Source: Chitinophagales bacterium | Lineage (GTDB): Bacteria > Bacteroidota > Bacteroidia > Chitinophagales > JADIYW01 | NCBI GenBank assembly: GCA_023957235.1 | Contig: JAMLHI010000003.1 | Coordinates: forward strand, 1-64,000 | DNA length: 64,000 nucleotides | Direction: 5' to 3' | Part shown: positions 27,596 to 53,607 of the stretch, piece after piece | Position numbering within the stretch: position 1 is the first letter of the stretch | Layout of the letters: every line of letters begins with the position of its first letter | Program-made: the position numbers and the translations under genes | The notes under the pieces: model-generated | Database searches by the model: none | Seen by the model: the letters and a program-made list of their open reading frames with translations, nothing else | Told to the model about the DNA's origin: nothing

Positions 27596-29197
27596 TTATT
27601 TTTCGGGTAGCAAACCTTGTTCTTTTAGCCAGTTTTTTTCTTCCGGTAGGTAATTTTGTTGAGCAAAGTCTTTTTTCTGTAAAAAAAATTTATTCAACTC
27701 AGCCCCAATATCATTATTGGTAGGTGTACCGTAATTGCCCCAACAGATTATTTTAAAAACCTTAGTAATAAGGTCAGACGCAGCTTCATGGCTTTTGATG
27801 GTTTCATTGTTTGAAATGTAATGCCAAAGCCCAATCCAGAGCCTTCTATGGATCATTGCTGTTTGTAAATCGAGCGATTTCTTGGGAATTTCTAAACTAA
27901 AATGCTCCTTGATATTTAATATGTTTTTGAAATCGGTTTTAGCAAAGCTCATGATGTAATTCCAACATTCATCTACTTTCTCATCTACCTTTTTAAAAAA
28001 TACATAGCTATTTAAAGAGCTTTTAACGGTAAAATAGAGTTGCTTATAAGACGTTTCACCCACTACATTTGTCCATGCTTTTGATGTAATGGCACTCACT
28101 TCATTTGAAACAGCATCGATACATTTCTCATACACTATTCCCGAAAATATTTGCCATTGGATCTCATCTTTTAGGAATTGCTTCTTGTATAGGGTAATTT
28201 TTAGGTCTTGGATGTTTCTAATATGGTTAACTATAAAATCTGCCTGAGAAGTCAATGCTACCAACTGCCTATTACTATTTTGCCCAGCATACTGCAAAAT
28301 ATCGTAGCCCTGCATGGACTGCCAATAAGTTTGCGAATCATCTTTGTAAAGCCGCCAGTCAGAAACAACCACTTTTATATCACCACTTCTATCATTATCT
28401 AATAGCTCTATTGCTTTTTGTGCTGTTTGTACTGCCAACACATCAAATGATGGTGACAGTGCTGCTTTCGCCATCTCCAAATCTTCTTTTACATCGTCAA
28501 TAAGTAGCACTTTAAAACCCGTCTTTTCAATGTCATTATGATTTATGCTTTCTAAAAGAAATTGATTGGCTTTTGCTAAAAAAGCATCTTTTTGCTTGTC
28601 AAAATTTTCTTTCGTTAAACCAGGTGTTGTAATTTGTGTTGCAAAATTATGCCAATCTAATGTCAGCATTTGGTTCTGGGTAAGAAAAGGTACTGCTTCT
28701 GAAAGTACAGCTCCTATATCTGCTCCGAACTTTAGGTTATGATTCAGCTTGTCCAAAACCAAGCCCTTGGTATCGCAAAGCATCAGGCTTATATCCTGCA
28801 AGGTGGCAGAGCTAAGGACAGGTAATTTTTCAGCCAAGGTATTCAATACTTTCTCTGAAAAAGGGAGTTCAAGAAATGCGGTGCCAGGAGCAAACAGGAT
28901 TTTATATTTTAAATTGTTTTTGCTTTTTTGTTCAAAATATTCCTTCTGAATAGGACTGTAAAATACAATCGGAAGTTTAGATTTTTTTACCATCCTAATT
29001 TGCTGAGCGATATCGAAACCATAGTTGTTACTGAGTCTATGGTTTTCCCAATTGAGATGGATGTTGATGAGAATATAATCAATTCCTTCAAAGTCCACTT
29101 TCAGAAAATCATGAAAAGAGGTGCATATGTTTTCTTCAGGAATTGGTTCTAGCCCCAGATTGCATAAGTGAATATATGGCAGACTTTGTCTATTCAT
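27596..29197 (-). CDS. Response-regulator protein: pseudo-receiver, intact receiver, unknown C-terminal domain
   Basis: Residues 1-130 resemble a receiver fold without its acidic pocket (YILINIHLNW, then LPIVFYSPIQKE). Residues about 227-345 form a full receiver: Asp234/Asp235 in VLLIDDVKED, phospho-acceptor Asp280 in VVVSDWRLY, Thr316 in LVALTSQAD and Lys338/339 in LYKKQF. The 190 residues after it are helical and match no output domain I know, so DNA binding is not supported. It is the last gene of the eleven-gene operon and overlaps the preceding gene by eight bases. Its N-terminal part is a paralogue of the neighbour's, sharing the VFYSPI.K motif. A partner kinase is not obvious here. Confidence 0.72.
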   Translation of the reverse strand: MNRQSLPYIHLCNLGLEPIPEENICTSFHDFLKVDFEGIDYILINIHLNWENHRLSNNYGFDIAQQIRMVKKSKLPIVFYSPIQKEYFEQKSKNNLKYKILFAPGTAFLELPFSEKVLNTLAEKLPVLSSATLQDISLMLCDTKGLVLDKLNHNLKFGADIGAVLSEAVPFLTQNQMLTLDWHNFATQITTPGLTKENFDKQKDAFLAKANQFLLESINHNDIEKTGFKVLLIDDVKEDLEMAKAALSPSFDVLAVQTAQKAIELLDNDRSGDIKVVVSDWRLYKDDSQTYWQSMQGYDILQYAGQNSNRQLVALTSQADFIVNHIRNIQDLKITLYKKQFLKDEIQWQIFSGIVYEKCIDAVSNEVSAITSKAWTNVVGETSYKQLYFTVKSSLNSYVFFKKVDEKVDECWNYIMSFAKTDFKNILNIKEHFSLEIPKKSLDLQTAMIHRRLWIGLWHYISNNETIKSHEAASDLITKVFKIICWGNYGTPTNNDIGAELNKFFLQKKDFAQQNYLPEEKNWLKEQGLLPEK

Positions 29198-30935
29198 TTA
29201 AAATACTTACTTTCCTATTTTCAAATATCAATTTCAATGGACTTTTCGAGTTTACACCTTCACATACAATAGAATTTGCTTTAAAGACTTTATTGAACAG
29301 TAAAGATTTAAAATCACTATTATCCTTGTATTTATTAAACAACAAAACAACTCTTTTCTCTAAAGTAGTTAACCAATTATCTTTACCAGAATTGTTCTCT
29401 AAACAATTATAAAAATTAATGTACAAAAGCAATAAAGAAAATGGATAAGATGTGTAAGAGGTTTTTCCGTTTTGATTTTTTACTTTCTTATGAAAATTTT
29501 TATCAAAGTCTACAATTTTTATGCTCCCCTCCAAACTTATAAAAAATATTTGCATTGCTAATGTTGCATCACTTATAGAAAAATCATTAAAACAAGCATG
29601 ATGGCTGGCTTGGTTTCGTACTTCAAAAACAAATGAAATAGCTTCATTTCCGCCGTTTTTTAGCTTTAGTAGCTCTAATATTTTACCAATATTATTACAT
29701 ACTGAAGTAGAAGTAAAGGAATCACTATAATATTCGTTTAAATTTAGGTGCTTTTGTTCAAATATAATTTCACGGTTTAAAAGTCGGCGAATAGCAAACC
29801 AGGCAGATTTCAAAATCGAAATAATTTCCTCCTTATTTTTTATATAATTATCTTCCCAGCCTTTCCCTTTTGCCTTGTCAGGTAAAGATTCAACTTCCTT
29901 CCATATTGCATTTAATTGCTTGTAAATGGCAGTATGGCAAAACCCTTCGATACCATTCTTAAAAATCTCAAAATGGCTTAATTTTTGTTCGTTTAATGCA
30001 TCAACACGAATATCTTTTACCATCCAATCGTCAACACCAAGCGAGTCGAAAAATTTATAAATTGATGTTTTGTTACTAGAACTATGAAATACATAGGGTA
30101 CAGAAGGGAACTCTTTTTTTAAAAAATCAAAGACTTTATAGCCTGATATTGATTTGATTTTAGGAATGTCTTTCCATTCATTCGATTCATGGTTCTCTGT
30201 AAGATAGAAGTCGGATAAGATTAAATCCGGTGTAATATTCTTAATTTTTTTCTTGAGTTCTTGCTCAAAATAATTCCAATTATTTTTTAGATGTATTCGA
30301 TAGTCAGCGTTAGTTTTTATTGGCTTCCCACTTGTGTTCTTAACATAAAAAATCATGGAATCGGCATTAATAAAAATAGTTTGGAGAACTAATTTCCACT
30401 CACTTTGCTGGTCATCTATAAAGAAAATCTTATTATTTTTTGTATCTATATTGGAAAGGGATAGTTTATTTCTTAAATTATCACTATTTGCCAATGCCCA
30501 ACCACTCAACAAATTTTCAGAAGCATTGTTAAACTGCGGGAATTTATTATCCAAAATAATTTGGTGTAGTTCTCTTTCGAACTGCCCATCTTCATATTTA
30601 CATTCCACAAACGGCAACAATTTCAACACATAATTTTCGGGTTTTAATCTTACCAAATCATCTTTGGAAATCGGTGAGTAGAAAACTACTTTTAACTTGT
30701 CTTGGCACTTTTCAAATTGCTTAAGCAAGTGGCGGTAAATGATTACACCACCTTGTTGTAGCATTTTTTCTACTCCTTTGAAGGTGCAATGCACATCAAT
30801 GACAAAAACAGTATCGCCAGAAGTGTCAATTACTTTTTCAAAAAGCTGCTCAATGCCATTTTTTTTGGCAAAAACTATTTCAGCAACTTTTTCGTTTTTG
30901 GCAGAAATATTGGATATGTAAACAGGATTCATCAT
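29190..30935 (-). CDS. Response-regulator protein with pseudo-receiver, receiver, and C-terminal region bearing an RX4H motif
   Basis: Residues 1-130 form a pseudo-receiver (VFVIDVHCTF, KVVFYSPISKDD). Residues about 168-310 form a receiver with an internal insertion: Asp174/Asp175 in IFFIDDQQSEW, Asp242 in LILSDFYL, Ser285/286 in VFHSSSNKT and Lys307 in WMVKD. The C-terminal 270 residues are helical and contain FVFEVRNQASHHACFND, where Arg440 and His445 form an RX4H motif like that of HEPN ribonucleases, in a comparable helical setting. If it is a HEPN domain, the protein would be a phosphorylation-controlled RNase; that is inference from one short motif. It overlaps both neighbours by a few bases and is translationally coupled. 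Confidence 0.68.
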   Translation of the reverse strand: MMNPVYISNISAKNEKVAEIVFAKKNGIEQLFEKVIDTSGDTVFVIDVHCTFKGVEKMLQQGGVIIYRHLLKQFEKCQDKLKVVFYSPISKDDLVRLKPENYVLKLLPFVECKYEDGQFERELHQIILDNKFPQFNNASENLLSGWALANSDNLRNKLSLSNIDTKNNKIFFIDDQQSEWKLVLQTIFINADSMIFYVKNTSGKPIKTNADYRIHLKNNWNYFEQELKKKIKNITPDLILSDFYLTENHESNEWKDIPKIKSISGYKVFDFLKKEFPSVPYVFHSSSNKTSIYKFFDSLGVDDWMVKDIRVDALNEQKLSHFEIFKNGIEGFCHTAIYKQLNAIWKEVESLPDKAKGKGWEDNYIKNKEEIISILKSAWFAIRRLLNREIIFEQKHLNLNEYYSDSFTSTSVCNNIGKILELLKLKNGGNEAISFVFEVRNQASHHACFNDFSISDATLAMQIFFISLEGSIKIVDFDKNFHKKVKNQNGKTSYTSYPFSLLLLYINFYNCLENNSGKDNWLTTLEKRVVLLFNKYKDNSDFKSLLFNKVFKANSIVCEGVNSKSPLKLIFENRKVSILNE

Positions 30936-31489
30936 TTGCCAAGTTTTGTGTTTACATAGGCTTGCAATTCGGCTTTCTTTGTTTTTAGCTCTGCTGTGGG
31001 AGTAGTAAGTGGGTGGGAGGTAGCGAAAGGTTCTAAAAGTGCTTCGAGTTTGGGGTCAAAACTCTGTAATGCTTCAAAAACATTGCCTCCATTTTTTAAT
31101 GCCAATGCAAATGCTTCTAAATCCCATTCAGTTGTAGCATCATCACTTACTTTTCCTTGAAAGGCAAATACGTTCTCATTCTTATTACCCAAGATAATGT
31201 CAGCTCCACCAGAATAAACAATAACGATTTTATCTTGTGGAATTCCATTTACTGCATTATTAAACTGGTCATTACTGTAATGTATAAAGATGTATTTAAT
31301 AAGATTAATGAATTGATCAAAAAATTCTTTGTGGTTACTCCAAACTCCTGTTAAGCTATCAACATTCTGCCCATTAAATTGTCTATGATGAGTGGCTGAT
31401 AAGTCATATCTTTTTAATAAGCTTACAATGTTTTCACCTCTTGTTGTGTTGCTATCAAAAATCAGTATATTAATATTATGCTCCATCAT
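30932..31489 (-). CDS. Small receiver-like protein
   Basis: The 185-residue protein opens like a receiver (NINILIFDSNTTRGENIVSL) and has a second hydrophobic strand with a small-residue turn (KIVIVYSGGADIIL), which parallels the VFYSP motif of the two larger neighbours. The acidic pair and the Lys switch are not convincing, so it may not accept phosphate. The C-terminal 60 residues are a helical, charged tail (TAELKTKKAELQAYVNTKL). It overlaps the upstream gene by 14 bases and the downstream gene by four. A role as adaptor or phosphate-independent receiver is a guess. Confidence 0.6.
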   Translation of the reverse strand: MMEHNINILIFDSNTTRGENIVSLLKRYDLSATHHRQFNGQNVDSLTGVWSNHKEFFDQFINLIKYIFIHYSNDQFNNAVNGIPQDKIVIVYSGGADIILGNKNENVFAFQGKVSDDATTEWDLEAFALALKNGGNVFEALQSFDPKLEALLEPFATSHPLTTPTAELKTKKAELQAYVNTKLGK

Positions 31490-33257
31490 GTTTATAGGTT
31501 TTATAATTAAAAATTAAGTATCGGTGATGGTCTTCAAAATTGCAGTTAGTTTTACCAACTAAACAGTTGTCATTTAGTTTTTCGTATTTAGCATTAGTGA
31601 TAAACATATCGTTATTTTTATTTTTAACAACAAAATAAAAGTCTCCTATATATACAATATTAGGTAGTATTTTTTTTAACACCTCTGGGACATTAGCTGA
31701 ATCGTATGTAAATACTGTATTGTCGTCCATATAACTTAAAATTAAGAATGTGTCTTGCTCCTTTATAGTGCCTTTAACATTGGCATCACTTAAATTTAAG
31801 ATATTCTCAGTAATAATATTATCCAAATAAATATTTAAATTCGTGATTGAATATTTCTTAAAAACTGAGGTAAGTAAATGGCTAATAGCATCTTCAAAAT
31901 ACTCCAAAATATTAACATGTATTCGCTCAGAAGTGGGGTTAATGTTAAAAGTGATTTGTGAATTAAAACCTATCAGATAAGTATTAATTTTTTTTAACAT
32001 AACATTAGAATTTCGATAAGTCACTAAACAAGTAGTATTAATTTTTAACTTTTGAATTTCATCAAGTAAAGCAATAGCTTTATTTTTAACCGTTAAGTCT
32101 GATATGTTTGAAATTTGAGCTTTGGCATCGCTTATGTTTTTAGCTACGTTATTTATCGCATCTTCTTTTTTCCACCTACTGCCATCATTGCTATGACATA
32201 AATCTGCAAAGCCACAAGTGTCAATCAAAAAAGAAAAGACCGTTGGAATTTTTACATTTACCTTCTTCTGATACAAGTGGTAAGCAACATTACCAGCTAA
32301 TACAGAGGATACTCGCTCACTAAGTATTCTAAAAAACACCCTATCTTCTTTTTCTAAAGTATTTTTATAGCCAATAATCAATGAGCCGAGAGACCGCTTT
32401 GTATTTGCTTTCTTGTCAACAAAAATTACGCTTGGTATATTCTCTATTACTACATTAAAAATGAATGATAAAAAACCATGAGCGATTATCGTATTTGCAA
32501 ATGACTCTATTAGTATCTCCTTTTCTGTTTTGTACTCAAAGAAATTGTTGTTGTTTATCCTATTTAATTGTTTGATTTTTTCAACTAACTTTTTTTTGTA
32601 ATTATCTATACTGTTTTTACAAATAAGATTTGAAATCAGAAAGTGGGAGTTGTCAGCATTTCCATTATTGTTGTATATGTTTTCATTTTTATTTGTACTG
32701 GGAATCCACTTGTTGTTAGTATCTAATAATTGTTCTTTGTATTTATCGAAAATTACTTTTTTGGTATCATCATAGCTCTTTTTGTTCCCAAAAATTTCAT
32801 AATAGGGAAACTCAAAAGAAAGTAAGTCAAGTTGATGGATATATCTTACAGCATCATATTTCTTGTCATTACAGCTGATTTTAAAAGCTACTGGTGTTTT
32901 GTCAAATAGCTTTGCAAATGTTATAGACGTTTGTATAGTAGATAAATTGCTATTAAGTCCTTTAAGATAGCTCCGAAAATACCCATAATCGGATACAATG
33001 TATTCTTCAAAACTTCTTTCGTTAAATGAGTTGAAAAAGAAGCGATTATTTGTAATTGATTTTATCTCAAATGGAAAGTCTGTTAAAGTAGAGTATGAGA
33101 ATGAAATGAATTCTAGATTATCGTATTGGTGCATCCATTGAGTGCTACAAATTTCATTAAAAAACTTGTTAATAACATCTTCAATATCATCATATCCAAT
33201 AATTGAAAAATCAATTTTGGATAAAATGTCATAATAAAATGAGGTTATTTTATTCAT
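31476..33257 (-). CDS. Large orphan protein with GAF-like segment, possible sensor of the receiver proteins
   Basis: I do not recognise the full 593-residue chain. Residues about 245-325 resemble the end of a GAF domain, in particular KRSLGSLIIGYKNTLEKEDR followed by the helix VFFRILSERVSSVLAGNVAY. A charged helical part follows (about 360-400). The C-terminal part has an FEDAISHLLTSVFKKY stretch and a later LILSYMDDNTVFTYD that weakly recall the N and G boxes of histidine-kinase ATPase domains, but no phospho-acceptor His box or GxGL motif is clear. There is no signal peptide or membrane helix. Base composition is very AT-rich, with many Asn and Lys codons. Its place before three receiver-type genes suggests a sensory or kinase-like role. 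Confidence 0.55.
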   Translation of the reverse strand: MNKITSFYYDILSKIDFSIIGYDDIEDVINKFFNEICSTQWMHQYDNLEFISFSYSTLTDFPFEIKSITNNRFFFNSFNERSFEEYIVSDYGYFRSYLKGLNSNLSTIQTSITFAKLFDKTPVAFKISCNDKKYDAVRYIHQLDLLSFEFPYYEIFGNKKSYDDTKKVIFDKYKEQLLDTNNKWIPSTNKNENIYNNNGNADNSHFLISNLICKNSIDNYKKKLVEKIKQLNRINNNNFFEYKTEKEILIESFANTIIAHGFLSFIFNVVIENIPSVIFVDKKANTKRSLGSLIIGYKNTLEKEDRVFFRILSERVSSVLAGNVAYHLYQKKVNVKIPTVFSFLIDTCGFADLCHSNDGSRWKKEDAINNVAKNISDAKAQISNISDLTVKNKAIALLDEIQKLKINTTCLVTYRNSNVMLKKINTYLIGFNSQITFNINPTSERIHVNILEYFEDAISHLLTSVFKKYSITNLNIYLDNIITENILNLSDANVKGTIKEQDTFLILSYMDDNTVFTYDSANVPEVLKKILPNIVYIGDFYFVVKNKNNDMFITNAKYEKLNDNCLVGKTNCNFEDHHRYLIFNYKTYKHDGA

Positions 33258-40645: not shown

Positions 40646-40653
40646 TAAATTTG
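40646..40653 (+). promoter_or_regulatory. Possible -7 box of the OmpA-family gene
   Basis: TAAATTTG matches TAnnTTTG, 30 bases before the ATG at 40684. No clear TTG is present 17-23 bases upstream. Confidence 0.4.
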
Positions 40654-40683
40654 CCCTACACGAATCTTAAATTAAACCTAATA

Positions 40684-42192
40684 ATGTTATTTATGAAGAT
40701 ATTCAAATTGAAACATGCTCAAGTAGGACTTGGAATTTTGAGTATAGGACTACTTAGCTTCCCCCTATCTTCAAATGCAGAGGGACTCCAAACGGATAAA
40801 ATTTTAAAAAATTATTCAGTCACAGTTCATGCGGGAGCTACAAGACCATTTACCGATGTTCGTTCTTACGACTTTATCAACATCAAAAGACCCAAAGCTG
40901 ATGTTCAGTATGGTATGGGAGCTTCTGTCACAAGAATGTTTGGCGGTGTATTCGGATTACAAGCTGATTATACCTTTGGTAAATTACAAGGAACATCTAG
41001 ACCTTTAAAAGCTGGATATCAAGACAAGACTACATTCTTACAAATGGGTTTTAAAGATCCTTTCTATTTTAAGACCTTATTTCACCAACCATCTTTAAAT
41101 CTATATATTAATTTTTCAAACATGTTTGTAGGATTAAATAGATATATCAGAGCAAATAAAGAAGGTCGTCCTTTGAATGAAAGAAAAGTATCTGCTTACG
41201 GTAAAGTAGGTATAGGTATGATTTTCTTCGATTCTAAATTGTACAATCTAGAAAATGATAAACATCCTCAACCTTATAAATATATGAGAGGATTTACCAA
41301 TAAAACAACAGAGATTGTTGTTCCAATGGCACTAGGTGTGAAATACAAAATCAATACAAAATTTGATGTCGGAGTTGAAGGTCAATATAATTTGACTAAT
41401 GGTGACAAATTAGATGCACTAGTATTAGATAGCCGTAAGACAGGAAGATTTGATAAGTATGCTTATGTAAACGCTAACTTTACTTACAAATTTGGTAGCA
41501 AAGAAACTCAAAAGGAACACTTAGAATGGGTGAATTCACTAGAATCTTATATGACCAATACAGATGCTAAATTGGCAAACTTGTACACTGTTAAAGATGC
41601 TGATAATGACGGCGTAATTGATGAGTTGGACTGGGAACCAGAGACTGAGGAAGGTGCTATCGTAGATACTCATGGTAGAACTGTAGATAGCGATGGTGAT
41701 GGTATTCCTGACCATAAAGATCCAGAGCCTTTCTCTTCTCCTATGTTACCTATTAAAGATGGTGTAAACGTTAGACAAGATGGATTGACTCCAGATATGA
41801 TTAACCAAATCAAAGAATTGGTATCTACTGAAGTGAAAACTCAAATCTCTGGATGGTTCTTTTCTATTGTGTTCTTTGACTTAGATAAATCTAATATCAG
41901 AACAAGTGAAATTCCTGAATTGTATCAAGTTGCTAATTATATGTTGAGATTCCCTGAAGTGAAAATGAACATCAAAGGTTATACTGACGTAAGAGCAAGT
42001 GAAAAATATAATATTGGCCTTTCTGAAAGAAGAACAGATGCTGTTATCAATTATTTAGTCAATACTTATGGTATTTCTAGAGATAGATTTGTAGGTTCTT
42101 ATTTTGGTGAAGCTGATAATATGGTTAAAAACGCTACTAAAGAACAACAACATCAATTGAATAGAAGAGTTGAAATCACAATCGTGAATTAG
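40684..42192 (+). CDS. OmpA-family outer-membrane protein
   Basis: After a signal peptide ending near LLSFPLSSNAEG, residues about 30-265 form a beta-rich outer-membrane domain with many aromatic strand ends (AYVNANFTYKFG). Thrombospondin type 3-like calcium-binding repeats follow: DADNDGVIDELDWEPE and DSDGDGIPDHKDPEPF. The C-terminal OmpA peptidoglycan-binding domain contains FFDLDKSNIRTSE, YTDVRASEKYNIGLSERR and LNRRVEITIV. It probably ties the outer membrane to the wall. I chose the ATG at 40684 (a second one is at 40693); the TTG at 40651 lies within the promoter-like box. Confidence 0.9.
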   Translation: MLFMKIFKLKHAQVGLGILSIGLLSFPLSSNAEGLQTDKILKNYSVTVHAGATRPFTDVRSYDFINIKRPKADVQYGMGASVTRMFGGVFGLQADYTFGKLQGTSRPLKAGYQDKTTFLQMGFKDPFYFKTLFHQPSLNLYINFSNMFVGLNRYIRANKEGRPLNERKVSAYGKVGIGMIFFDSKLYNLENDKHPQPYKYMRGFTNKTTEIVVPMALGVKYKINTKFDVGVEGQYNLTNGDKLDALVLDSRKTGRFDKYAYVNANFTYKFGSKETQKEHLEWVNSLESYMTNTDAKLANLYTVKDADNDGVIDELDWEPETEEGAIVDTHGRTVDSDGDGIPDHKDPEPFSSPMLPIKDGVNVRQDGLTPDMINQIKELVSTEVKTQISGWFFSIVFFDLDKSNIRTSEIPELYQVANYMLRFPEVKMNIKGYTDVRASEKYNIGLSERRTDAVINYLVNTYGISRDRFVGSYFGEADNMVKNATKEQQHQLNRRVEITIVN

Positions 42193-42214: not shown

Positions 42215-42245
42215 ATGGGTTGCAACTTGCAACCCATTTTTTTTA
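42215..42245 (+). terminator. Rho-independent terminator of the OmpA-family gene
   Basis: ATGGGTTGCAA and TTGCAACCCAT form a near-perfect hairpin (42215-42237), followed by a run of T, 23 bases after the stop. Confidence 0.85.
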
Positions 42246-42258
42246 TCTTTAATGGATA

Positions 42259-42292
42259 TTGTCTAAATAGGAAAAGTATTTTATTACCTTTG
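42259..42292 (+). promoter_or_regulatory. Promoter of the export-PKS operon
   Basis: TTG (42259-42261) is followed after 23 bases by TACCTTTG (42285-42292) and then CACC, a common Bacteroidota form. The leader to the ATG at 42311 would be about 12 bases. Confidence 0.55.
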
Positions 42293-42310: not shown

Positions 42311-44782
42311 ATGAAAAAATTAATTGCATCTGCAATTTTTATTACATCCTTACTATTTACAGCCCAAGCTCAAGTAAGCGGAATTAATCTTAATCAAATA
42401 ACTAATATGCTGAGTCCATCTAAAATGATGGGACAATTGCCAAATGTCAATCAATCCTCCATGATGGGATTGGATCAGAATACTTTGAAGTTGTTGATGG
42501 GAAGTCAAGAAAATTTGGATGAGAAAGGTAAGCCAACAACTCCAACTAAAGTTCCTGCTGCTATTGCAACTCCTGCCGCTGGTGATGTGAACCCGACTGC
42601 TGGTTTTGATTTGAGTAGTTCCGAAGGCTTATTTGATATGTTATATTCTCAGACAGCAAGAATGAGAACTTTGCAAGATTCTATAGGAATCATGCAGAAA
42701 AAAATAGATGATTCAAGTTTTGAAAAAACAAAGACCTTATATGTGTGGGGACATGAATTGTTTCATAATGATTTATTACAGACTTATGTTAAATCTGTTG
42801 ATGCAAAAGTCAACGATTCATATATTGTAAGCGTCAATGATGAAATCACACTAGCAGTCTGGGGTTATGCTGATTATAATGGAACTTTTAAAGTGAGTAA
42901 AGATGGATATATTCAAATTCCTGAGTTTGGTAGAGTATATGTAAAGGGGCTTACTTTTGGAGCTGTAAAACAATTAATTGCTAAAAGATTAGCTTCATTT
43001 ATTAATCCAAAGAACACGCAGTATGAAATTACTTTGAACTATGCTAGAAATATTAATATTAACATTTTAGGAGAAGTGATACAACCTGGTACATTTCAGA
43101 TTCCCGCAGTTAATTCTGTGTTTAATGCCTTAAATGCAGCTTATGGTCCTTCTCCAACTGGTAGTTTGAGGAATATTGATGTTCGTAGAGATGGAAAATT
43201 AGTGAGGTCTTTTGACGTCTATGAATTCTTATTGAATAATGATGCTAAACAAAATTTTTATCTGCAAGAGAATGATGTGATTTATGTACCAGTCATTGGT
43301 AAGGTCATAGAAATTACTGGAGCCGTTAGAAAGGAGAATAAATATGAATTGAAGGATGGTGAAGGTATAAAAAAGATTTTAGACTTTGCCGGAGGGCTTC
43401 AAGCAAATGCTTATACTGATTTGATTAAGATTGAAAGATATGTGAACCAAAAGGTAGAAGTTATCAATATTAATCTTACAGATATCTTAAAAAGCGGTAG
43501 TGATTTTGCGCTTCAAGATGGGGATAAAATTTATATTCCTCAAGCTAATATTAGAGGAGAAGATGCAATTGAAATAGCAGGTACAGTTTTAATTCCAGGC
43601 ATCTATGAGTTTAAAGAGGGGTTCAGAGTAAGTGACCTGATAAAAATTGCAGGTGGAATGTTACCACAAACCTATATGGATAGAGCTTATTTGAATAGAA
43701 GAATGGATGATGGCTCTTCTGTATTGATGAAAATTAGCTTGAAAGATATTTTCTTAGATGAGAATACTTCTGATAATATTTTATTAAAGAAAATGGACAA
43801 ATTGGAATTATTTTCAAAAAGCAGTTTTGTTGAAAAATTTAGTGTTTCAATTACTGGCTCCGTTCGTAAGCCTGTAAAAATGGATTATTCAGAAGGTCTC
43901 ACTTTGAATGATTTGATTTTTTATGCTGGAGGCTTGAAAAAAGAAGCTGCAAATAATAAGATTGAAATTTCTAGAGTAATCAATGTAAAAGGCGATGTTG
44001 ATAAGACTATGGAAGCCCAGAGAGTTGTTGTTCAAACATTACAAATAGGTCCTAATTTAGAATTGGATAATTTTTCTAAAAATTATGAATTAGCTCCTAT
44101 GGATCAAGTTTTTGTTAGAAAAAGTGTTGATTTTAATGAACAGATGACAGTCGCTCTTACAGGCGAAGTAATGTATCCAGGAACTTATCCTATTCTAGCT
44201 AAGAATGAGACAATTATTCAATTGATAGAGAGAGCTGGAGGATTGACTCCTTTTGCACATATCAATTCTGCAAAATTATATAGAAAAGACAGTGTAAACG
44301 CTATTGAAATTTTAGATTTAAAAGTGGCATATAGCGATTCTAGTTCTTATGCTAACTATGCATTAATGAATGGTGATATAATTGAAATCCCAACTATGAA
44401 TCCAATGGTATCTGTCAAAGGTGCAATTAAATATCCTACAGATTCTAATCGTTTTGTATCTGCTAGATATATACCTGGAAAATCAGCGAAATACTATATT
44501 AAAAATTATGGTGGAGGTTATGCTCCTAGAGCTAATAGAAAATTGACGGTGGTCATGCATCCTAATGGAGATATTGGTAGGACGAAAAATTTCTTAGGCA
44601 TTAAAAAATACGCAAAAGTAAGAGAAGGCTCTCAAGTGTTGACGTATGCTAAACCACCTAAACCAGAAGATATTCCTGTGCCTAAGCAACCTCTAAACTG
44701 GAATTTGGTTTTGCCTAGTATCATTGTTTCTTTGAGTAGTGCAGCATCTACAATTGCTATTATTTTCTTGTTGAAAAAATAA
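42311..44782 (+). CDS. Wza-like polysaccharide export protein with multiple SLBB domains
   Basis: A signal peptide (ASAIFITSLLFTAQAQ) is followed by a Met/Asn/Gln-rich low-complexity stretch (residues 25-110). A polysaccharide-export domain follows near 175-255 (SVNDEITLAVWGYADYNGTF, DGYIQIPEFGRVYVKGLT), then about five SLBB repeats of the form ITGAVRKE, IAGTVLIPGIYEF, ITGSVRKPVKMDY and LTGEVMYPGTYPI. A C-terminal membrane helix (WNLVLPSIIVSLSSAAST) is present. The protein would form or plug the export channel across the envelope. It is first in an operon with a Wzz-like protein and a polyketide synthase. Confidence 0.88.
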   Translation: MKKLIASAIFITSLLFTAQAQVSGINLNQITNMLSPSKMMGQLPNVNQSSMMGLDQNTLKLLMGSQENLDEKGKPTTPTKVPAAIATPAAGDVNPTAGFDLSSSEGLFDMLYSQTARMRTLQDSIGIMQKKIDDSSFEKTKTLYVWGHELFHNDLLQTYVKSVDAKVNDSYIVSVNDEITLAVWGYADYNGTFKVSKDGYIQIPEFGRVYVKGLTFGAVKQLIAKRLASFINPKNTQYEITLNYARNININILGEVIQPGTFQIPAVNSVFNALNAAYGPSPTGSLRNIDVRRDGKLVRSFDVYEFLLNNDAKQNFYLQENDVIYVPVIGKVIEITGAVRKENKYELKDGEGIKKILDFAGGLQANAYTDLIKIERYVNQKVEVININLTDILKSGSDFALQDGDKIYIPQANIRGEDAIEIAGTVLIPGIYEFKEGFRVSDLIKIAGGMLPQTYMDRAYLNRRMDDGSSVLMKISLKDIFLDENTSDNILLKKMDKLELFSKSSFVEKFSVSITGSVRKPVKMDYSEGLTLNDLIFYAGGLKKEAANNKIEISRVINVKGDVDKTMEAQRVVVQTLQIGPNLELDNFSKNYELAPMDQVFVRKSVDFNEQMTVALTGEVMYPGTYPILAKNETIIQLIERAGGLTPFAHINSAKLYRKDSVNAIEILDLKVAYSDSSSYANYALMNGDIIEIPTMNPMVSVKGAIKYPTDSNRFVSARYIPGKSAKYYIKNYGGGYAPRANRKLTVVMHPNGDIGRTKNFLGIKKYAKVREGSQVLTYAKPPKPEDIPVPKQPLNWNLVLPSIIVSLSSAASTIAIIFLLKK

Positions 44783-45934: not shown

Positions 45935-48900
45935 ATGAAAATTTCTGATCTTGCAGATACTTCTAAAAGGACTTTCCCTTCTCAAGAGCCTATTGCTATT
46001 ATAGGTGTTGGATGTAGATATTCAGGAGGAATTAATAATTTAGAAGATTTTTGGAAGGTATTAATTGAAAAAAAGAGTACTCTGCATGATGTGCCTTTAG
46101 ATAGATTTACTCATGGAGATAATCTTTTTGATCCTGATAGAGGGTATAGAAAAATTGTTTCTAAGCGGGGAGGCTGGCTGAATAATTTAAAAGAATTTGA
46201 TGCTAAATTTTTTAAAATTTCACCTAGGGAAGCAGAGAAAGTTGACCCTCATCAACGTTTGATGCTGGAAGTTACTTATGAAGCACTTGAAGATGCAGGC
46301 CTCAAACTTGAAGATGTTTGGGGCACTCGTACAGGTGTTTATGCGGGAATGTGGTCTAGCGATTTTGAGCATATCTTAACGCAATCTAAAGATGATATAG
46401 ATGTCTATTCAACAACAGGAAGTGGCAGATATGGTGCTGCAGGTCGATTGGCCTATTTTTTCAATTTACAAGGGCCTACGTTTACATTAGATACTGCTTG
46501 TTCTACGTCTTTAGTAGCTATTCATTTGGCTTGTCAGAGTTTGCATTTAAGAGAAAGTGATATGTCTGTCTGTTCTGCTGCCAATTTGATTTTAGATCCT
46601 TTTATTTCTATTGGATATTCAAGGTCAAGGTTGCTGTCAGATTATGGCAAGTGTCGTTTTGGAGCCAAAGATGCATCTGGTTATGTTAGGACAGAAGGTG
46701 CAGCTACGGTTATTCTTAAAAGATTAAGTGATGCACAAAGAGATGGGGATTTTATTTATGGGGTAATACCAGGGTCTGCTTGTAACAGTGATGGCCAGTC
46801 ACATAAACACATGATGGCTCCTAGTGCCATTACTCAGGAGATTATGATTAAAGATGCACTCAGTCGTGCACATATAGCTCCTCAATTAGTTCAATATGTT
46901 GAAGCTCATGGCACAGGCACAAAGGCGGGAGATCCAGCTGAAATTGCTTCTATTTCTGGTGCGCTCAGCGAAGGAAGAAACCCTGAAGATATATTCTATG
47001 TAGGTTCTATTAAAACAAATTTAGGTCATACTGAAGCAGCTTCTGGTGTGGCTGGTTTAATCAAAGTTTTATTATCTATACAACATAGAACTATACCGGG
47101 CAACTTATATGCAGATGAAGAGAAAAACCCTTATATCCAATGGGATAATTTATCTCTTAGAATTCCCTCAGAAGCAATAGCTTGGCCTCATCCTGAAAGA
47201 CCTTTACTTGCAGGACTGAACTCATTTGGTATTTCTGGAACGAATGCCCATGTTGTCATTCAAGAAGCCCCTCAATCTGATAAATCGAAACCTTCTTTCA
47301 AAAGAAAATATAACATTCTGCCAATTTCAGCAGCCAACGAAAAGGCTCTTCAAGCATATTGTAAATTGTATTTGCCATATTTTGAAAAGGTTCAATCAGA
47401 TGAAGATTTTTTGAATCTAGTTAAAAATATAGCGATTAGAAAGGCTGATTTAGCACAAAGAGCAGCTATTGTCTTTCAAGATAAAAAGGATGTTATAGTA
47501 GGGCTTCAGTCTATTATTTCTGGTAAATATGCAGATAATGTTTTAATTGGATATAGTGAAGAGAAAAGAAGAACAGCACTAGTATTTCCTGGGCAAGGTG
47601 CTCAATGGAATCAAATGGGTAAAGATTTATATTCGTCTGAACCTGTTTTTAAAAATGCGATAGATGAATTTGCATTTGCCTGTCAACCTTATATTTCAGG
47701 GTCTTTGTTAGATGAGCTATTTTCTGATGATGGACTTAAGGAAATTGATACGATTCAACCTGCTTTGTTAGCTGTAGAGATAGCTTTGGCTAAGTGGTGG
47801 TTTTCTATTGGTTTAGATTTTAAAGCTGTGATGGGTCATAGTATGGGAGAAATAGGTGCTGCATATCTTGCTGGAGTCATTTCTATAGATGTAGCTGCAG
47901 CAATTATTTGTACTAGAAGCCAATTGATGAAAACAACCTCAGGGCAAGGTGCCATGGCATATATTGCACTACCTCCATCTGTTGTGTCTGAACAGTTTAA
48001 AGGAAGAGAAGCTGAAATAGGTATTGGTGTGAATAATAGCCCATCCTCTTGTGTGATTTCAGGTACCAATAATATTGTAGATGAAATTTGTTTACATTTT
48101 GAAAATGAAGGTGCATTTGTTCGTAAAATAAAAGTAGATGTAGCATCTCATAGTCCGCAGATGTATCCATTGACTGAGCCTTTAAAGACAAAGATTGAAG
48201 CAATGGAAGCTATGTCTTCTGAATTGGAAGTCTTTTCTACTGTCTATGCTAGAAATGTAGATGGGAAAGAGTTGAATTCTGCATATTGGGCGTTAAATCT
48301 TAGCCAGACAGTTCGTTTCTCAGAAACTGTCCAGTTCATGATTCAAGATGGATATGGTTTGTTTGTAGAAGTAAGCCCTCATCCTACGCTGTTACAAGCA
48401 CTTCAAGAAAATGCTGAAAGCCTACAGTCTGAAATAGTCACTGTTGGAAGTATGGAACGTGAAAAGGACAATCAGTTGATATTGATGCAACAGGTCGCAA
48501 CATATTTTGCCAATGGAGGGAGAGTGAGTTGGAAGAAATTGTATGATTTAAATTTTGAGAAAATACTATTACCTGCTTATCCATGGCAAAGGGTAAAATA
48601 TTGGGTGGAAGAGGAGACATTGAATTCAAGGAGGTTGGCTCTAGGTGGAAAGGGAAATGTATCTACTCACCCTTTCTTATCTCAATCATTTGATTTGCCA
48701 AAAGAAACAGAGATTTTGCTCTGGGAAACAGTTATCAGCTTAAATGAGTTGCCATATTTAAAAGACCATAAAATTCAGGATACTGTTATTTTTCCTGGAG
48801 CAGGATATATAGAAATGATTTGGGCAGCTGTTGATGATCATTTTAATCATGCAAATTGTGTTATTCAGAATTTAGAACTCAAAAATGCTTTGCCTATTGA

Positions 48901-51900
48901 TGAAAATAAAGACACTATTCTTCAAATTGTTCTGACGAAAGAATTTGATAATCAATTTCTAGCCTCTATTTATGGTGTTACTGAGAATAAAGAAGAAGCT
49001 AATTGGGTAGAATATGCACAAGCAACGATATTTATTCGCAGTTTGGATAATCAAATTTTAGATAATGAGATTTTTGCTAATGTCAATGAAGAATTATCTG
49101 AGAATGTGAAGATTTCAAAAGAGGAACATTACAGCCATACTTCAAAAATCCATTTGCCCTATGGAGAAACATTTCAGACAGTTAGTCAATTGAATATAGG
49201 TACAAATGAAGTCGTGGCAGATATTCAGTCTGTCAACTCTATTAATAATTCAGTGTCGAAGTATTTTATTCATCCAGCTATTTTAGATGGATTTATTCAG
49301 GCGTTTCTATCAGCTAGATATCTCAATAATCAATCAACATTTGTTCCTGTTAAAGTAGGTGAAATAGTTCTTCATCATTTTGATAAAGATATTTTCTTTG
49401 GGAAAATTAAAATTCGGCTGATTGGTAACGATACAAATCGCATAATAGGTGATGCAATTGTATTCAATGAAAATGGACATCTTTTATTGGAATTGAAAGG
49501 ATTTGAATTGGCAAGTTTGGAGCAAGACTTTCAACAAGAGGATCAATTTGAAGAACAGATTTTATTTGAAACCATAGCCATAGAACAATCACTTCCTGAG
49601 TTCGTTGAAAAGAATGTTATTATTTTTGTCTCAGATGACTCTGCGGAGGATTTGATAGATGCTTTCCAACCCAAATGGATTGTGCGTAAGGGGGATTTTT
49701 TCCATCATCAAGGTAATCAGTTCATTATAGACCCAGGAAGGTTTGAAGATTACCAATCACTCTTCGATGTTGTTGGCAAAAGTATTGATACAATTGTACA
49801 TACATGGAATCTAGATGAAAAATTCGTTGCAGGTTTAGAACCTCAAGAAAATACGACACTATCAGTTGTTAGAATTATTCGAGCTGTTTCATATAAGGAT
49901 ATTACACCTAGATTATGGGTGCTGACAGAATCTATAGAGAAATTTCCAGCTCAATCCACCGTGCTTGGTTTGTTAAATGTGGCTAGAAATGAACATCCAG
50001 AGTTGAATGTTTCATCTATTGAAATGATGGATGATGATTTGAGCCGAGTAGTACAGATTGTCAATAGTGATACGGAGGAGAATTCATGGAAAATTCAAAT
50101 GGACTCTCAGACAGTGGATAGATTGTCACCAATTGATATCCAAGAAAATATAGATAAAGATGTAAAGAGAGTTTCAGCTGAACATCAAATCTTTGAGGTG
50201 GCAATGAGTCAGCCTGGAATTTTAGACAATTTAATTTTTAGAAAAAAATATTTGCCTAAGCTTAAGCCTCAAGAAGTCAAAGTTAATGTGCGAGCCATTG
50301 GTATTAATTTTATGAATCTGATGTCTGCCTTAGGAATTTATCCAGGTAAAGAAAATGGATTTGCTACTTTAGGTATTGAATGTGCAGGTATTGTTGATGA
50401 GGTTGGAGAAGACGTCAAACATTTAAAAGTAGGAGATAGAGTTTTTGGTATGGCATATCATACAATGGCATCTCATATCCATGTAGATGCTTCATTGATG
50501 CAAATTATTCCTGAAAATTTAAGTTTTGATGACGCTGCAAGTATTCCAGTAGTTTATTTAACGGTGTATTATGGACTGGTTACATTGTCAAGGCTGCAAA
50601 AAGGTGAGAGGGTTTTAATCCATTCTGCTACTGGAGGGGTAGGCCTAGCTGCGATACAGATTGCAAAGATAATTGGTGCTGAGGTGTATGCTACCGCAGG
50701 AAATGATGAGAAGAAAGCCTTGCTTTACTCAATGGGCATTAGTCATGTATATGATTCGAGAAGTTTGGATTTCGCAGAACAGATTCTTAAAGACACTTCT
50801 GGAGAAGGAGTTGATGTTGTTCTCAATTCTTTGACGGGAAGTGCTATGATAAAGAGTATGCACCTATTGCGAAGTTTTGGTCGTTTTGTAGAAATTGGAA
50901 AGAAAGATGTCTATGCCAATTCCAAAGTAGGACTAGAGGTCTTTAGTAGAGGTCTAAGTTATTTTATGATAGACTTTGAAAAGATGATTTTCGAAAAGCC
51001 ACGATTGGTTGGAGATTTATTGGGAGAGTTAATCCCTTATTTTGAGAATGAAGAATTGACGCCGATACAAAATAAAATTTTTCATGTGTCAGATGTGAAA
51101 TCAGCATTTGAATATATGTCTTCAGGTAAGCATATTGGAAAGATTGTGATTCAGGTGAATTCCGACAATGTATTTTTAGAAGAAGTCGTTGGGAGCAAAG
51201 GATTTAGAGAAGATGCTACATATCTGATAACTGGTGGTTATGGTGGTTTAGGATTGACATTTGCCCAATATATGGTAGAAAAAGGGGCAAGGAGATTGAT
51301 ACTGTTAGGTCGCTCAGGACATTCAGATAGTGAAATAATTGGTCAGTTAAGAGCATTAGGAACGGAGGTGATTGTAGAAAAGGCAGATGTAAGTGAAAGA
51401 GAGGACTTTGAGAGGGTATTGGCAATTCATCATAGTAATGAGCAACCATTGAAAGGGGTGTTTCATTTAGCGGGTATTTTAGATGACTCTTCTATTTTAA
51501 ATCTAGATGAAGATGCTTATTATAGGGTTTTAAGTCCTAAAGTTTTAGGAGCTTATAATCTCCATATCACAACTCAGGCTTATGACTTGGATTATTTTGT
51601 ATTATTTAGTTCATCAACAATTTTATTCGGCTCTCCAGGACAGTCTGCTTATGTAGCTGCCAATATGTATATGGATGCTTTGGTAGAACACAGGCAGAGA
51701 ATGGGATTGGGAGGGATGTCGATTCAATGGGGGACGGTTTCTGATATAGGGCTGGCTGCTTCTGCAGAAAATCGTTCTAATCGCTTGGAAGAAGAAGGGG
51801 TTGCTCCTTTATCGCCTATAGAGTGTACAGAATGGTTTGATAAAATGATTCAGATGGATATTCCTGTAATTGGAGCATTTAGATTTGAATTAGCAAAATG

Positions 51901-52504
51901 GCAAAAGGCTTATCCATCAGTGTTAAAAAATCATTTTTATGATTTATTGCGAAAAGATGGTTTTGATAAAGAAGAGACTTTGGATGTCTCCAAAGAATTG
52001 TCGCTCACTGAATTGCTATTGAATATTGATGATGTAGAAATAAGATTAAATACACTGGAGAATCAGTTGAAAGGAATAGTGGGACATATAGTAAAATTAC
52101 CTGCTGATGATATTCATATCAAAACAACCTTTAAATCATTGGGGATAGATTCTCTGATGTCTATTCAATTGAAAAATCAACTGGAAAAGGCTTATGCTGT
52201 TTCGCTTTCAGTAACTGCTTTTTGGACATATTCGAATATTAGGGACTATGCTAAGTTCTTATTTGAAAAGCTGAACTTGAATATTGTTGAGCCAGTAACT
52301 GAACCTGCCCCAAAGGAAAATATTTCAACCCAATCAGTTGTGATAGAGCCAGTTGCAATGACAGAAAGTATTCCTCAAACTGAATTAAATATTTCTGAAA
52401 CTAAAGTGGAAGAGAAGAAATTGAAAGAAGAAAATGAAGATGATTTGTCACTAGATGATTTAAGTAAATTATTGGATGATGAATTAAATAGTTTGCTAGA
52501 TTAA
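45935..52504 (+). CDS. Fully reducing single-module type I polyketide synthase (KS-AT-DH-psiKR-ER-KR-ACP)
   Basis: KS (about 17-440): DTACSTSLVAIH with Cys189, EAHGTGTKAGDP with His325, NLGHTEAASG with His365. AT (about 555-880): FPGQGAQWNQMG, GHSMGE with Ser636, and VASHSPQ in the specificity region, close to the YASH form more often tied to methylmalonyl. DH (about 910-1200): DHKIQDTVIFPGAG with His945 (Gly of HxxxG is Asp) and HPAILDGF with Asp1118. A structural half-KR (about 1220-1400) precedes ER (about 1420-1735, HSATGGVGLAAIQIAK). KR (about 1755-1940): TGGYGGLGL, Tyr1906 in QSAYVAAN. ACP: LGIDSLMSIQ with Ser2073. The order resembles mycocerosic-acid-type iterative synthases. No thioesterase or loading module. 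An acidic tail ends DDELNSLLD. Product unknown; export genes are upstream. Confidence 0.93.
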   Translation: MKISDLADTSKRTFPSQEPIAIIGVGCRYSGGINNLEDFWKVLIEKKSTLHDVPLDRFTHGDNLFDPDRGYRKIVSKRGGWLNNLKEFDAKFFKISPREAEKVDPHQRLMLEVTYEALEDAGLKLEDVWGTRTGVYAGMWSSDFEHILTQSKDDIDVYSTTGSGRYGAAGRLAYFFNLQGPTFTLDTACSTSLVAIHLACQSLHLRESDMSVCSAANLILDPFISIGYSRSRLLSDYGKCRFGAKDASGYVRTEGAATVILKRLSDAQRDGDFIYGVIPGSACNSDGQSHKHMMAPSAITQEIMIKDALSRAHIAPQLVQYVEAHGTGTKAGDPAEIASISGALSEGRNPEDIFYVGSIKTNLGHTEAASGVAGLIKVLLSIQHRTIPGNLYADEEKNPYIQWDNLSLRIPSEAIAWPHPERPLLAGLNSFGISGTNAHVVIQEAPQSDKSKPSFKRKYNILPISAANEKALQAYCKLYLPYFEKVQSDEDFLNLVKNIAIRKADLAQRAAIVFQDKKDVIVGLQSIISGKYADNVLIGYSEEKRRTALVFPGQGAQWNQMGKDLYSSEPVFKNAIDEFAFACQPYISGSLLDELFSDDGLKEIDTIQPALLAVEIALAKWWFSIGLDFKAVMGHSMGEIGAAYLAGVISIDVAAAIICTRSQLMKTTSGQGAMAYIALPPSVVSEQFKGREAEIGIGVNNSPSSCVISGTNNIVDEICLHFENEGAFVRKIKVDVASHSPQMYPLTEPLKTKIEAMEAMSSELEVFSTVYARNVDGKELNSAYWALNLSQTVRFSETVQFMIQDGYGLFVEVSPHPTLLQALQENAESLQSEIVTVGSMEREKDNQLILMQQVATYFANGGRVSWKKLYDLNFEKILLPAYPWQRVKYWVEEETLNSRRLALGGKGNVSTHPFLSQSFDLPKETEILLWETVISLNELPYLKDHKIQDTVIFPGAGYIEMIWAAVDDHFNHANCVIQNLELKNALPIDENKDTILQIVLTKEFDNQFLASIYGVTENKEEANWVEYAQATIFIRSLDNQILDNEIFANVNEELSENVKISKEEHYSHTSKIHLPYGETFQTVSQLNIGTNEVVADIQSVNSINNSVSKYFIHPAILDGFIQAFLSARYLNNQSTFVPVKVGEIVLHHFDKDIFFGKIKIRLIGNDTNRIIGDAIVFNENGHLLLELKGFELASLEQDFQQEDQFEEQILFETIAIEQSLPEFVEKNVIIFVSDDSAEDLIDAFQPKWIVRKGDFFHHQGNQFIIDPGRFEDYQSLFDVVGKSIDTIVHTWNLDEKFVAGLEPQENTTLSVVRIIRAVSYKDITPRLWVLTESIEKFPAQSTVLGLLNVARNEHPELNVSSIEMMDDDLSRVVQIVNSDTEENSWKIQMDSQTVDRLSPIDIQENIDKDVKRVSAEHQIFEVAMSQPGILDNLIFRKKYLPKLKPQEVKVNVRAIGINFMNLMSALGIYPGKENGFATLGIECAGIVDEVGEDVKHLKVGDRVFGMAYHTMASHIHVDASLMQIIPENLSFDDAASIPVVYLTVYYGLVTLSRLQKGERVLIHSATGGVGLAAIQIAKIIGAEVYATAGNDEKKALLYSMGISHVYDSRSLDFAEQILKDTSGEGVDVVLNSLTGSAMIKSMHLLRSFGRFVEIGKKDVYANSKVGLEVFSRGLSYFMIDFEKMIFEKPRLVGDLLGELIPYFENEELTPIQNKIFHVSDVKSAFEYMSSGKHIGKIVIQVNSDNVFLEEVVGSKGFREDATYLITGGYGGLGLTFAQYMVEKGARRLILLGRSGHSDSEIIGQLRALGTEVIVEKADVSEREDFERVLAIHHSNEQPLKGVFHLAGILDDSSILNLDEDAYYRVLSPKVLGAYNLHITTQAYDLDYFVLFSSSTILFGSPGQSAYVAANMYMDALVEHRQRMGLGGMSIQWGTVSDIGLAASAENRSNRLEEEGVAPLSPIECTEWFDKMIQMDIPVIGAFRFELAKWQKAYPSVLKNHFYDLLRKDGFDKEETLDVSKELSLTELLLNIDDVEIRLNTLENQLKGIVGHIVKLPADDIHIKTTFKSLGIDSLMSIQLKNQLEKAYAVSLSVTAFWTYSNIRDYAKFLFEKLNLNIVEPVTEPAPKENISTQSVVIEPVAMTESIPQTELNISETKVEEKKLKEENEDDLSLDDLSKLLDDELNSLLD

Positions 52505-53607
52505 TGGGTTTGAGTATTGAGAGTTTTCCAAAGTTTATAGATTATTTCTTCTGCGAGTGTAGTTTTTTCTATACTTATATATTCGAGTAAGCGGATTTCT
52601 TGTCGGCCATTATCTTCTATTTGATCTGGGGATATATGGTGATTGAAAGATTCGTCAGCACGAGTGATAGCAAAAACAAATTTTTTTTCATCTATATCAT
52701 ATTCTAGTATGCATATTTTCTCATCATTAGATAATAGAGGTATGTATATATGTTTTGGGCTTTTTACATAAAATTGATTATTCATATTTGAGGTATATCC
52801 ATACATGAAATAATAGTATTCCTTATATTGAAATGGTATGCCTACTTTTTCAAGTAAATGGATAAGTTTACTGGTCTCATCTTCTATTATTTGTGCGCTT
52901 CCTTTAGTGGGAGTTAGGTCTTCTTTGCTCACCCAGCAACCTTTAACCCAGTCGAAATATTCGTATTCTCCCAATCGTAATTTATAATTAAATAGTTTAT
53001 TTTTTTGCATGATATATCCAGGGTAATAATAATTATATTGATTTTTTATTCCCCAGCTAATTTCTAAATACATGGTAAATAACCCTAGACTATAAGCTCC
53101 ATAGTCAAGATTATAAGCTCCTAAAATACTAGCAATACTATTTTTTCCTATATCAAAAACACTGAACGCTATTAATTGGTCGCCATCATAAATGTTTACT
53201 TCGTAGGAGTTGAAATTAGAAAAGTATATAGAACTTCCAAATAAAAATGACTCTAAGCTATTATTGTTTTTAGAATTAAATTTAGAAAAATGCCGCATGT
53301 ATAAATCTTCCTTTTCTGGGCTGATTACGAAAGGTTGTATGCTGTAACTAAATTTTTTTTCTACTCGACGTGCAATTTTTTGAATACTCTTGGAAAATTG
53401 ATGGTGCTCAAGGTTTAATCTGATATTTCTCACCTCATCTAATTCACCTTTCTGACTATAAATTTGTGTTGAAAACATGCCGCCAGCATGTCTAAAATAT
53501 CCCTGAGCTAAATATAAATCCAATTTCCTTCCAATCATGTATGTTGGTTGTACGAAATTGATAATTTGTTTACGAAGATTGGTCATCTGAAATAGCGTAG
53601 TAGGCAA
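52501..53607 (-). CDS. Ate1-like (arginyl/leucyl-tRNA-protein transferase, GNAT-fold) protein
   Basis: The C-terminal half contains GAYSLGLFTMYLEISWGIKN, then QYNYYYPGYIMQKNKLFNYK and GEYEYFDWVKGCWVSKEDL, which match the C-terminal GNAT-type domain of Ate1/Bpt transferases. The N-terminal Cys pairs of eukaryotic Ate1 are not visible, as is usual for bacterial forms. Such enzymes add an amino acid to protein N-termini for degradation by ClpAP-type proteases. The activity of this Bacteroidota subgroup is unproven. Its stop overlaps the PKS stop by four bases (convergent); no functional link to the PKS is apparent. Confidence 0.65.
   Translation of the reverse strand: MPTTLFQMTNLRKQIINFVQPTYMIGRKLDLYLAQGYFRHAGGMFSTQIYSQKGELDEVRNIRLNLEHHQFSKSIQKIARRVEKKFSYSIQPFVISPEKEDLYMRHFSKFNSKNNNSLESFLFGSSIYFSNFNSYEVNIYDGDQLIAFSVFDIGKNSIASILGAYNLDYGAYSLGLFTMYLEISWGIKNQYNYYYPGYIMQKNKLFNYKLRLGEYEYFDWVKGCWVSKEDLTPTKGSAQIIEDETSKLIHLLEKVGIPFQYKEYYYFMYGYTSNMNNQFYVKSPKHIYIPLLSNDEKICILEYDIDEKKFVFAITRADESFNHHISPDQIEDNGRQEIRLLEYISIEKTTLAEEIIYKLWKTLNTQTH

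Follow-up and report, generated by a model that had tools for sequence, protein, structure and literature searches.

Conserved linkage of a polyketide synthase with a Wza-Wzz polysaccharide exporter in a family of Chitinophagales, and a proposed three-protein assembly line

Mycocerosic acid synthase (MAS) and Pks2 are mycobacterial synthases of methyl-branched acyl chains, Pks2 serving sulfolipid-1. In the curacin lines, of which CurG/H and CurK/L are examples, the proteins of a modular polyketide synthase (PKS) with acyltransferases (AT) in cis carry one module each and are joined by class 2 docking domains, a class described in PMC9113145. The K-antigen capsule of Sinorhizobium requires RkpA, encoded by a large fatty-acid-synthase-like gene of rkp-1, and polysaccharides of the Wzx/Wzy type are exported by Wza-Wzc or Wza-Wzz pairs. 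Here we describe a putative operon in which a Wza-like gene, a Wzz-like gene and a PKS gene (PKS-A) follow one another in a 64,000-nucleotide stretch of DNA (the window; C11:1-64000, contig JAMLHI010000003.1) from the 3.0-Mb genome of an uncultured Chitinophagales bacterium. The linkage of PKS and export genes is genuine and is conserved in the family, here termed f1. We lean modestly towards the view that PKS-A belongs to a cis-AT line of three proteins (A to B to C) that has its home in the mnmE|Wza-Wzz-PKS locus and whose acyl chain is joined to a glycan or glycolipid exported by Wza/Wzz. A search of one literature collection on PKSs with Wza/Wzz, with membrane-bound O-acyltransferases (MBOAT) or in Chitinophagales found no relevant description of such an arrangement.

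The three genes lie in a row on one strand, separated by 16 bases (Wza/Wzz) and 53 bases (Wzz/PKS-A), and stand behind one candidate promoter, as an earlier note on this DNA had proposed. Domains of PKS-A are ketosynthase (KS), AT, dehydratase (DH), structural ketoreductase (psiKR), enoylreductase (ER), ketoreductase (KR) and acyl carrier protein (ACP).

42259..42292, + strand: candidate Bacteroidota-type promoter for Wza-Wzz-PKS, TTG-N23-TACCTTTG (TTG at 42259, TACCTTTG at 42285-42292)
42311..44782, + strand: Wza-like outer-membrane polysaccharide export (OPX) protein, 823 aa; Poly_export and multiple SLBB domains (Pfam), signal peptide, C-terminal hydrophobic helix
44799..45881, + strand: 360 aa, Wzz-like polysaccharide co-polymerase lacking a kinase (AlphaFold model and Foldseek)
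45935..52504, + strand: PKS-A (2189 aa), KS-AT-DH-psiKR-ER-KR-ACP; proposed to be the opening module of a line of three proteins with dispersed genes

Family f1 comprises 13 genomes of four genera in the collection examined. The Wzz type of the window was detected in 11 of them, the remaining two being incomplete assemblies (85% and 72%), of which G119 gave a weak match. In all 11 orthologues the next gene 3' of Wzz is a PKS, namely PKS-A in genera g1 and g3 and a second synthase, PKS-B, in g2, and mnmE flanks the Wza-Wzz-PKS locus in every f1 locus inspected. The gene order is thus kept in the relatives, and in none of the 11 loci does the PKS lie away from the export genes, a point on which the earlier note had let its proposal stand or fall. 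Families f3 and f15 of the Chitinophagales have related Wza-Wzz pairs, which mostly stand with MBOAT, a partner, Wzx and sulfotransferases and have no PKS; the exception is genus g18 of f15 (G014, G078), in which a PKS adjoins Wza/Wzz.

Assignment of the two export proteins rests on different evidence. The Wza-like protein contains PF02563 and SLBB domains, as is characteristic of the OPX/Wza type. The Wzz-like protein had no match in a Pfam scan, Pfam Wzz included; with its AlphaFold model (pLDDT 74) as Foldseek query, all 50 PDB matches at E<=0.001 were co-polymerases (Wzc, WzzE and KpsE), and by this model it is of the two-transmembrane-helix co-polymerase fold. The OPX protein and the co-polymerase fold are those of Wza-Wzc and Wza-Wzz export systems. 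Unlike those systems, the operon has no kinase and no glycosyltransferase, and a PKS instead. The promoter consensus used in the window scan, which we take to be that of Bacteroidota, matched 14 times on the + strand versus 7.5 expected, and the match ahead of Wza is one of only three that lie 20-150 bp before a + strand open reading frame (ORF). The same scan gave no match before Wzz or before PKS-A.

PKS-A possesses the full reducing set that had been claimed for it, with the domains in the order given above and catalytic motifs present in KS, AT, DH (as the variant HxxxD), ER, KR and ACP.

45986..47284, + strand: KS (aa 18-450; Pfam), with no N-terminal docking coil ahead of it
47582..48508, + strand: AT (aa 550-858), motifs GHSMGE and VASHS; nearest solved ATs those of DEBS and MAS (methylmalonyl type)
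48668..49528, + strand: DH (aa 912-1198; Pfam)
49613..50044, + strand: structural (psi) KR (aa 1227-1370; PF21394)
50264..51151, + strand: ER (aa 1444-1739; Pfam)
51215..51742, + strand: KR (aa 1761-1936; Pfam, motif), LDD motif (B-type)
52064..52261, + strand: ACP (aa 2044-2109; Pfam)
52433..52501, + strand: acidic C-terminal helix DDLSLDDLSKLLDDELNSLLD, resembling a class 2 C-terminal docking domain

The Pfam domain scan found a single ACP and neither a loading module nor a thioesterase (TE) in PKS-A. The absence of a loading module stands as first reported; that of a thioesterase is true of the locus only, since the genome encodes such a TE at another place and relatives have one beside the PKS. 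A scan of genome contigs with PKS-A found one relative alone, the G033 contig; the nearest named relative of the window is contig JAMLHJ010000008.1 of a Chitinophagales metagenome-assembled genome, whose PKS-A is 79% identical.

PKS-A is one of three synthases to be considered together. PKS-B (KS-AT-KR-ACP, with two ACPs in the window genome) is encoded at C1:196 kb and PKS-C (KS-AT-ACP) at C11:287 kb. Within f1, PKS-C is present in 13/13 genomes and a B-type KS-AT in 12/13, PKS-A is confined to g1 and g3, and the three form separate groups in a KS tree. All are under purifying selection, with dN/dS of 0.05-0.08 between two species at a dS near saturation. The genes for A and B are in tandem in G046 and those for B and C in g2, PKS-C being followed by TE and phosphopantetheinyl transferase (PPTase) genes both in g2 (B-C-TE-PPTase) and in G046 (C-TE-PPTase). 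These gene orders agree with A to B to C, the genes being dispersed in g1. In PKS-B and PKS-C the KS is preceded by an N-terminal coil some 30 residues long, and the acidic C-terminal helix is found on A and B and is absent on C. As would be expected of a modular cis-AT line, the N-terminal docking coil is thus carried by B and C and is missing from A, as it is from a hybrid PKS in G081 (L048:9486-13946). This hybrid has an A-like KS to about aa 400 followed by B-like AT, KR and ACP, without the DH and ER of A; its lack of a coil is as expected of a first module. The simplest reading is that it arose by deletion between tandem A and B genes, which implies an ancestor with the A-B tandem. The coil on downstream proteins, the single module per protein and a CurL-like AT of malonyl type in PKS-C are shared with the curacin lines, which the acidic helix on upstream proteins, not diagnostic by itself, also recalls; this system differs from them in having its genes spread over three loci in the window genus, in lacking an integrated TE and in being tied to a polysaccharide exporter.

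Several further features of these synthases were observed in the relatives. PKS-B of G101 (L046:10557-15469) appears as two ORFs of 933 and 682 aa, parted between AT and KR by a true split or by a frameshift. Directly 3' of PKS-B in G046 (L170, C1 of that genome) lies a gene for a membrane protein of the FA_hydroxylase family. PKS-C has a conserved tail after the ACP, DWHEIK..D..WLRWFKK.DK (for example L041:10668-13940), and the fused PKS of G078 terminates in a comparable basic helix with Trp.

The earlier note had read PKS-A as a single-module synthase of an often iterative kind; the gene order, the coils on B and C and the A/B hybrid point instead to a three-protein line, and the stand-alone reading is probably wrong. 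We regard it as unlikely that PKS-A works iteratively in the manner of MAS, making a methyl-branched or saturated chain, with B and C employed in other pathways. PKS-A does have the domain order of MAS and Pks2 and a methylmalonyl-type AT, full-length MAS is its top PDB match, and synthases of the same architecture stand alone in family f50. However, the KS-AT region scores higher against the modular DEBS (595) and CurL (549) than against MAS (527), and PKS-A at 1209 bits is far under the Pks2 cutoff of 2400 (NF041183). The A-B tandem in G046, the coil on B and the G081 hybrid likewise argue against such a synthase. PKS-made acyl chains on surface sugars would be a further likeness to the mycobacterial systems, which differ from the proposed docked line in a Bacteroidota organism beside Wza/Wzz. 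A lipid synthase of the PfaA or HglE type was not supported (320 bits versus a PfaA cutoff of 1010, and one ACP where that type has tandem ACPs), HglE being judged without a model of its own. The f50 synthases, from another family of the class, are of about 2150 aa and were seen in 11 sampled genomes, some partial (L200-L205, L208); they lie far from Wza/Wzz in varying neighbourhoods.

In the proposed three-protein line, PKS-A would be the first extension module, adding one unit and reducing it fully, and its acyl starter would come from outside because PKS-A has no loading domain. The chain would be handed via docking helices to PKS-B, which would add a beta-hydroxy unit, and then to PKS-C, which would add an unreduced malonyl unit. 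The best-scoring counterparts of the A and B ATs are those of DEBS and MAS, and for the AT of C that of CurL; therefore methylmalonyl-CoA is the likely extender for A and B and malonyl-CoA for C. The predicted product would be R-CH2-CH(CH3)-CH(OH)-CH(CH3)-CO-CH2-CO-S-ACP, a methyl-branched 5-hydroxy-3-oxo-acyl chain. The genes, their domains and catalytic motifs, the conserved linkage and the joint occurrence of B and C are shown directly; we infer the docking order, the AT substrates and the product, and likewise that the chain is attached to a glycan and leaves through the window Wza. A separate TE adjoins PKS-C in g2 and g3; in the window genome there are one PPTase of Sfp type and a TE of PKS type, which share 38-44% identity with their counterparts in the g2 locus, the TE being unlinked to the PKS.

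The proposed link to a surface glycan draws on the relatives. The g2 locus continues beside the PKS genes with MBOAT and its small partner, acyltransferase-3 proteins, Wzx and a GT4 glycosyltransferase, and in several genomes of g2 this glycan locus, which g3 has too, lies next to the PKS genes. MBOAT is present in 13/13 f1 genomes, with the partner adjacent wherever the flank is long enough. The partner found no PDB match in our search and is possibly SGNH-like, to judge from motifs and from the pairing. The acyltransferases would join the acyl chain to the glycan or glycolipid exported via Wza/Wzz, and our best guess is a short acyl chain with methyl branches that serves as decoration or anchor of a glycan exported by Wza. 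The earlier suggestion of a reduced acyl product on a surface glycan is therefore kept as a best guess, since Wzx, glycosyltransferase, MBOAT and acyltransferase genes share the locus in relatives, with the attachment itself presumed. The window ORFs that were scanned, nearly all the larger ones among them, contained no glycosyltransferase domain, but the earlier statement that none is nearby does not extend to the relatives, which keep glycosyltransferase genes beside the PKS. A second Wza/Wzz pair of the window genome adjoins nucleotide-sugar genes, so that the window pair is not the sole exporter. Large membrane proteins of about 440-555 aa without Pfam matches are also encoded in the g2 and g3 glycan locus (L166, L168, L169), together with a sulfotransferase in G046. 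A 696-aa ORF in L050 was rejected as an antisense ORF.

Some observations weigh against the line and its coupling to export. In the window genome the three PKS genes are not linked to one another, and the MBOAT-partner pair is far from the PKS and unlinked in the window genus. Genus g2 has no full PKS-A, yet its PKS-B keeps the coil, the G081 hybrid excepted. The AT substrate assignments rest on similarity. The C-terminal tail of PKS-A had no PDB match in a sequence search, and as proof of a docking partner it is weakened by the f50 synthases, apparently the sole type I PKS of their genomes, which end in similar acidic tails. Lastly, Wza/Wzz and the PKS could have only regulation in common.

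A doubtful alternative is that A, B and C make a free or membrane polyketide, for example a dihydropyrone, and that Wza/Wzz are historical neighbours exporting a polysaccharide made elsewhere. A 5-hydroxy-3-oxo thioester could cyclise spontaneously, the scanned window ORFs hold no glycosyltransferase, and the PKS-less pairs of f3 and f15 imply that the export pair is older than the PKS. Against this, the linkage has persisted in 11/11 loci despite other rearrangements, the f15 PKS also adjoins Wza/Wzz, and acyltransferase, flippase and glycosyltransferase genes share the g2 locus. That the PKS product is a lipid carrier or anchor needed for building or holding the polysaccharide, and not a decoration, as proposed for RkpA in the rhizobial K antigen, is quite improbable: conservation across the whole family suggests a structural role, but the C module would leave an unreduced beta-keto end, odd for an anchor, and the likeness to RkpA is one of description and not of compared locus homology. 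With RkpA the proposed exporter-linked line shares a large fatty-acid-synthase-like gene beside a surface polysaccharide function (the requirement for it being RkpA's); the rhizobial locus is alphaproteobacterial, and here an A-B-C line stands with Wza-Wzz.

No stand-alone FabD was found in 13/13 f1 genomes, the fabD model matching PKS AT domains only, with the best match in PKS-C. Two PKS-bearing f15 genomes also showed no FabD, and in f50 genomes FabD was present. In a PKS-less Chitinophagales genome (G231), the 28% sampled contained neither FabD nor KS. We treat the FabD absence in f1 as a lead and not as a result. It would be a speculative step, and one we think rather improbable, to place the PKS line in core lipid metabolism, with the AT of PKS-C as malonyl-CoA:ACP transacylase for ordinary fatty acids and the megasynthase essential; such a role of this AT would explain the fixation of the PKS in the family.

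Upstream of the operon the window carries two further features:

40651..42192, + strand: OmpA-like protein with an outer-membrane barrel-like N-terminus and a C-terminal OmpA domain (Pfam, synteny)
42215..42237, + strand: terminator-like stem-loop and T run between OmpA and Wza, ending the OmpA gene

The OmpA-like gene, whose place before Wza is conserved by synteny in g1 and g3, is a transcription unit separate from Wza-Wzz-PKS. A promoter-like TAAATTTG lies at 40646, overlapping the TTG with which its ORF starts, and the true start is probably an ATG near 40684 or 40693. Its AlphaFold model was dropped (pLDDT 32). At the other end, an ATE_C arginyltransferase-like gene (52501-53607, - strand) is convergent with PKS-A with a 4-base overlap; it is 56% identical in G033 and is fast evolving. 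Elsewhere in the window, four consecutive proteins (533, 581, 185 and 593 aa; 27596-33257, - strand) without Pfam matches adjoin a PLP-enzyme gene and an operon for a branched-chain-type ABC transporter.

These data offer, in uncultured Chitinophagales, a conserved example, open to testing, of the coupling of a polyketide line with an exporter of capsule type, with a module order and a rough product formula now available as a search target. If the chain is indeed placed on an exported glycan, the mycobacterial acyl-sugars would have a Gram-negative counterpart, and if the FabD absence is confirmed, it would be a rare instance in which polyketide synthesis and primary fatty acid synthesis have merged.

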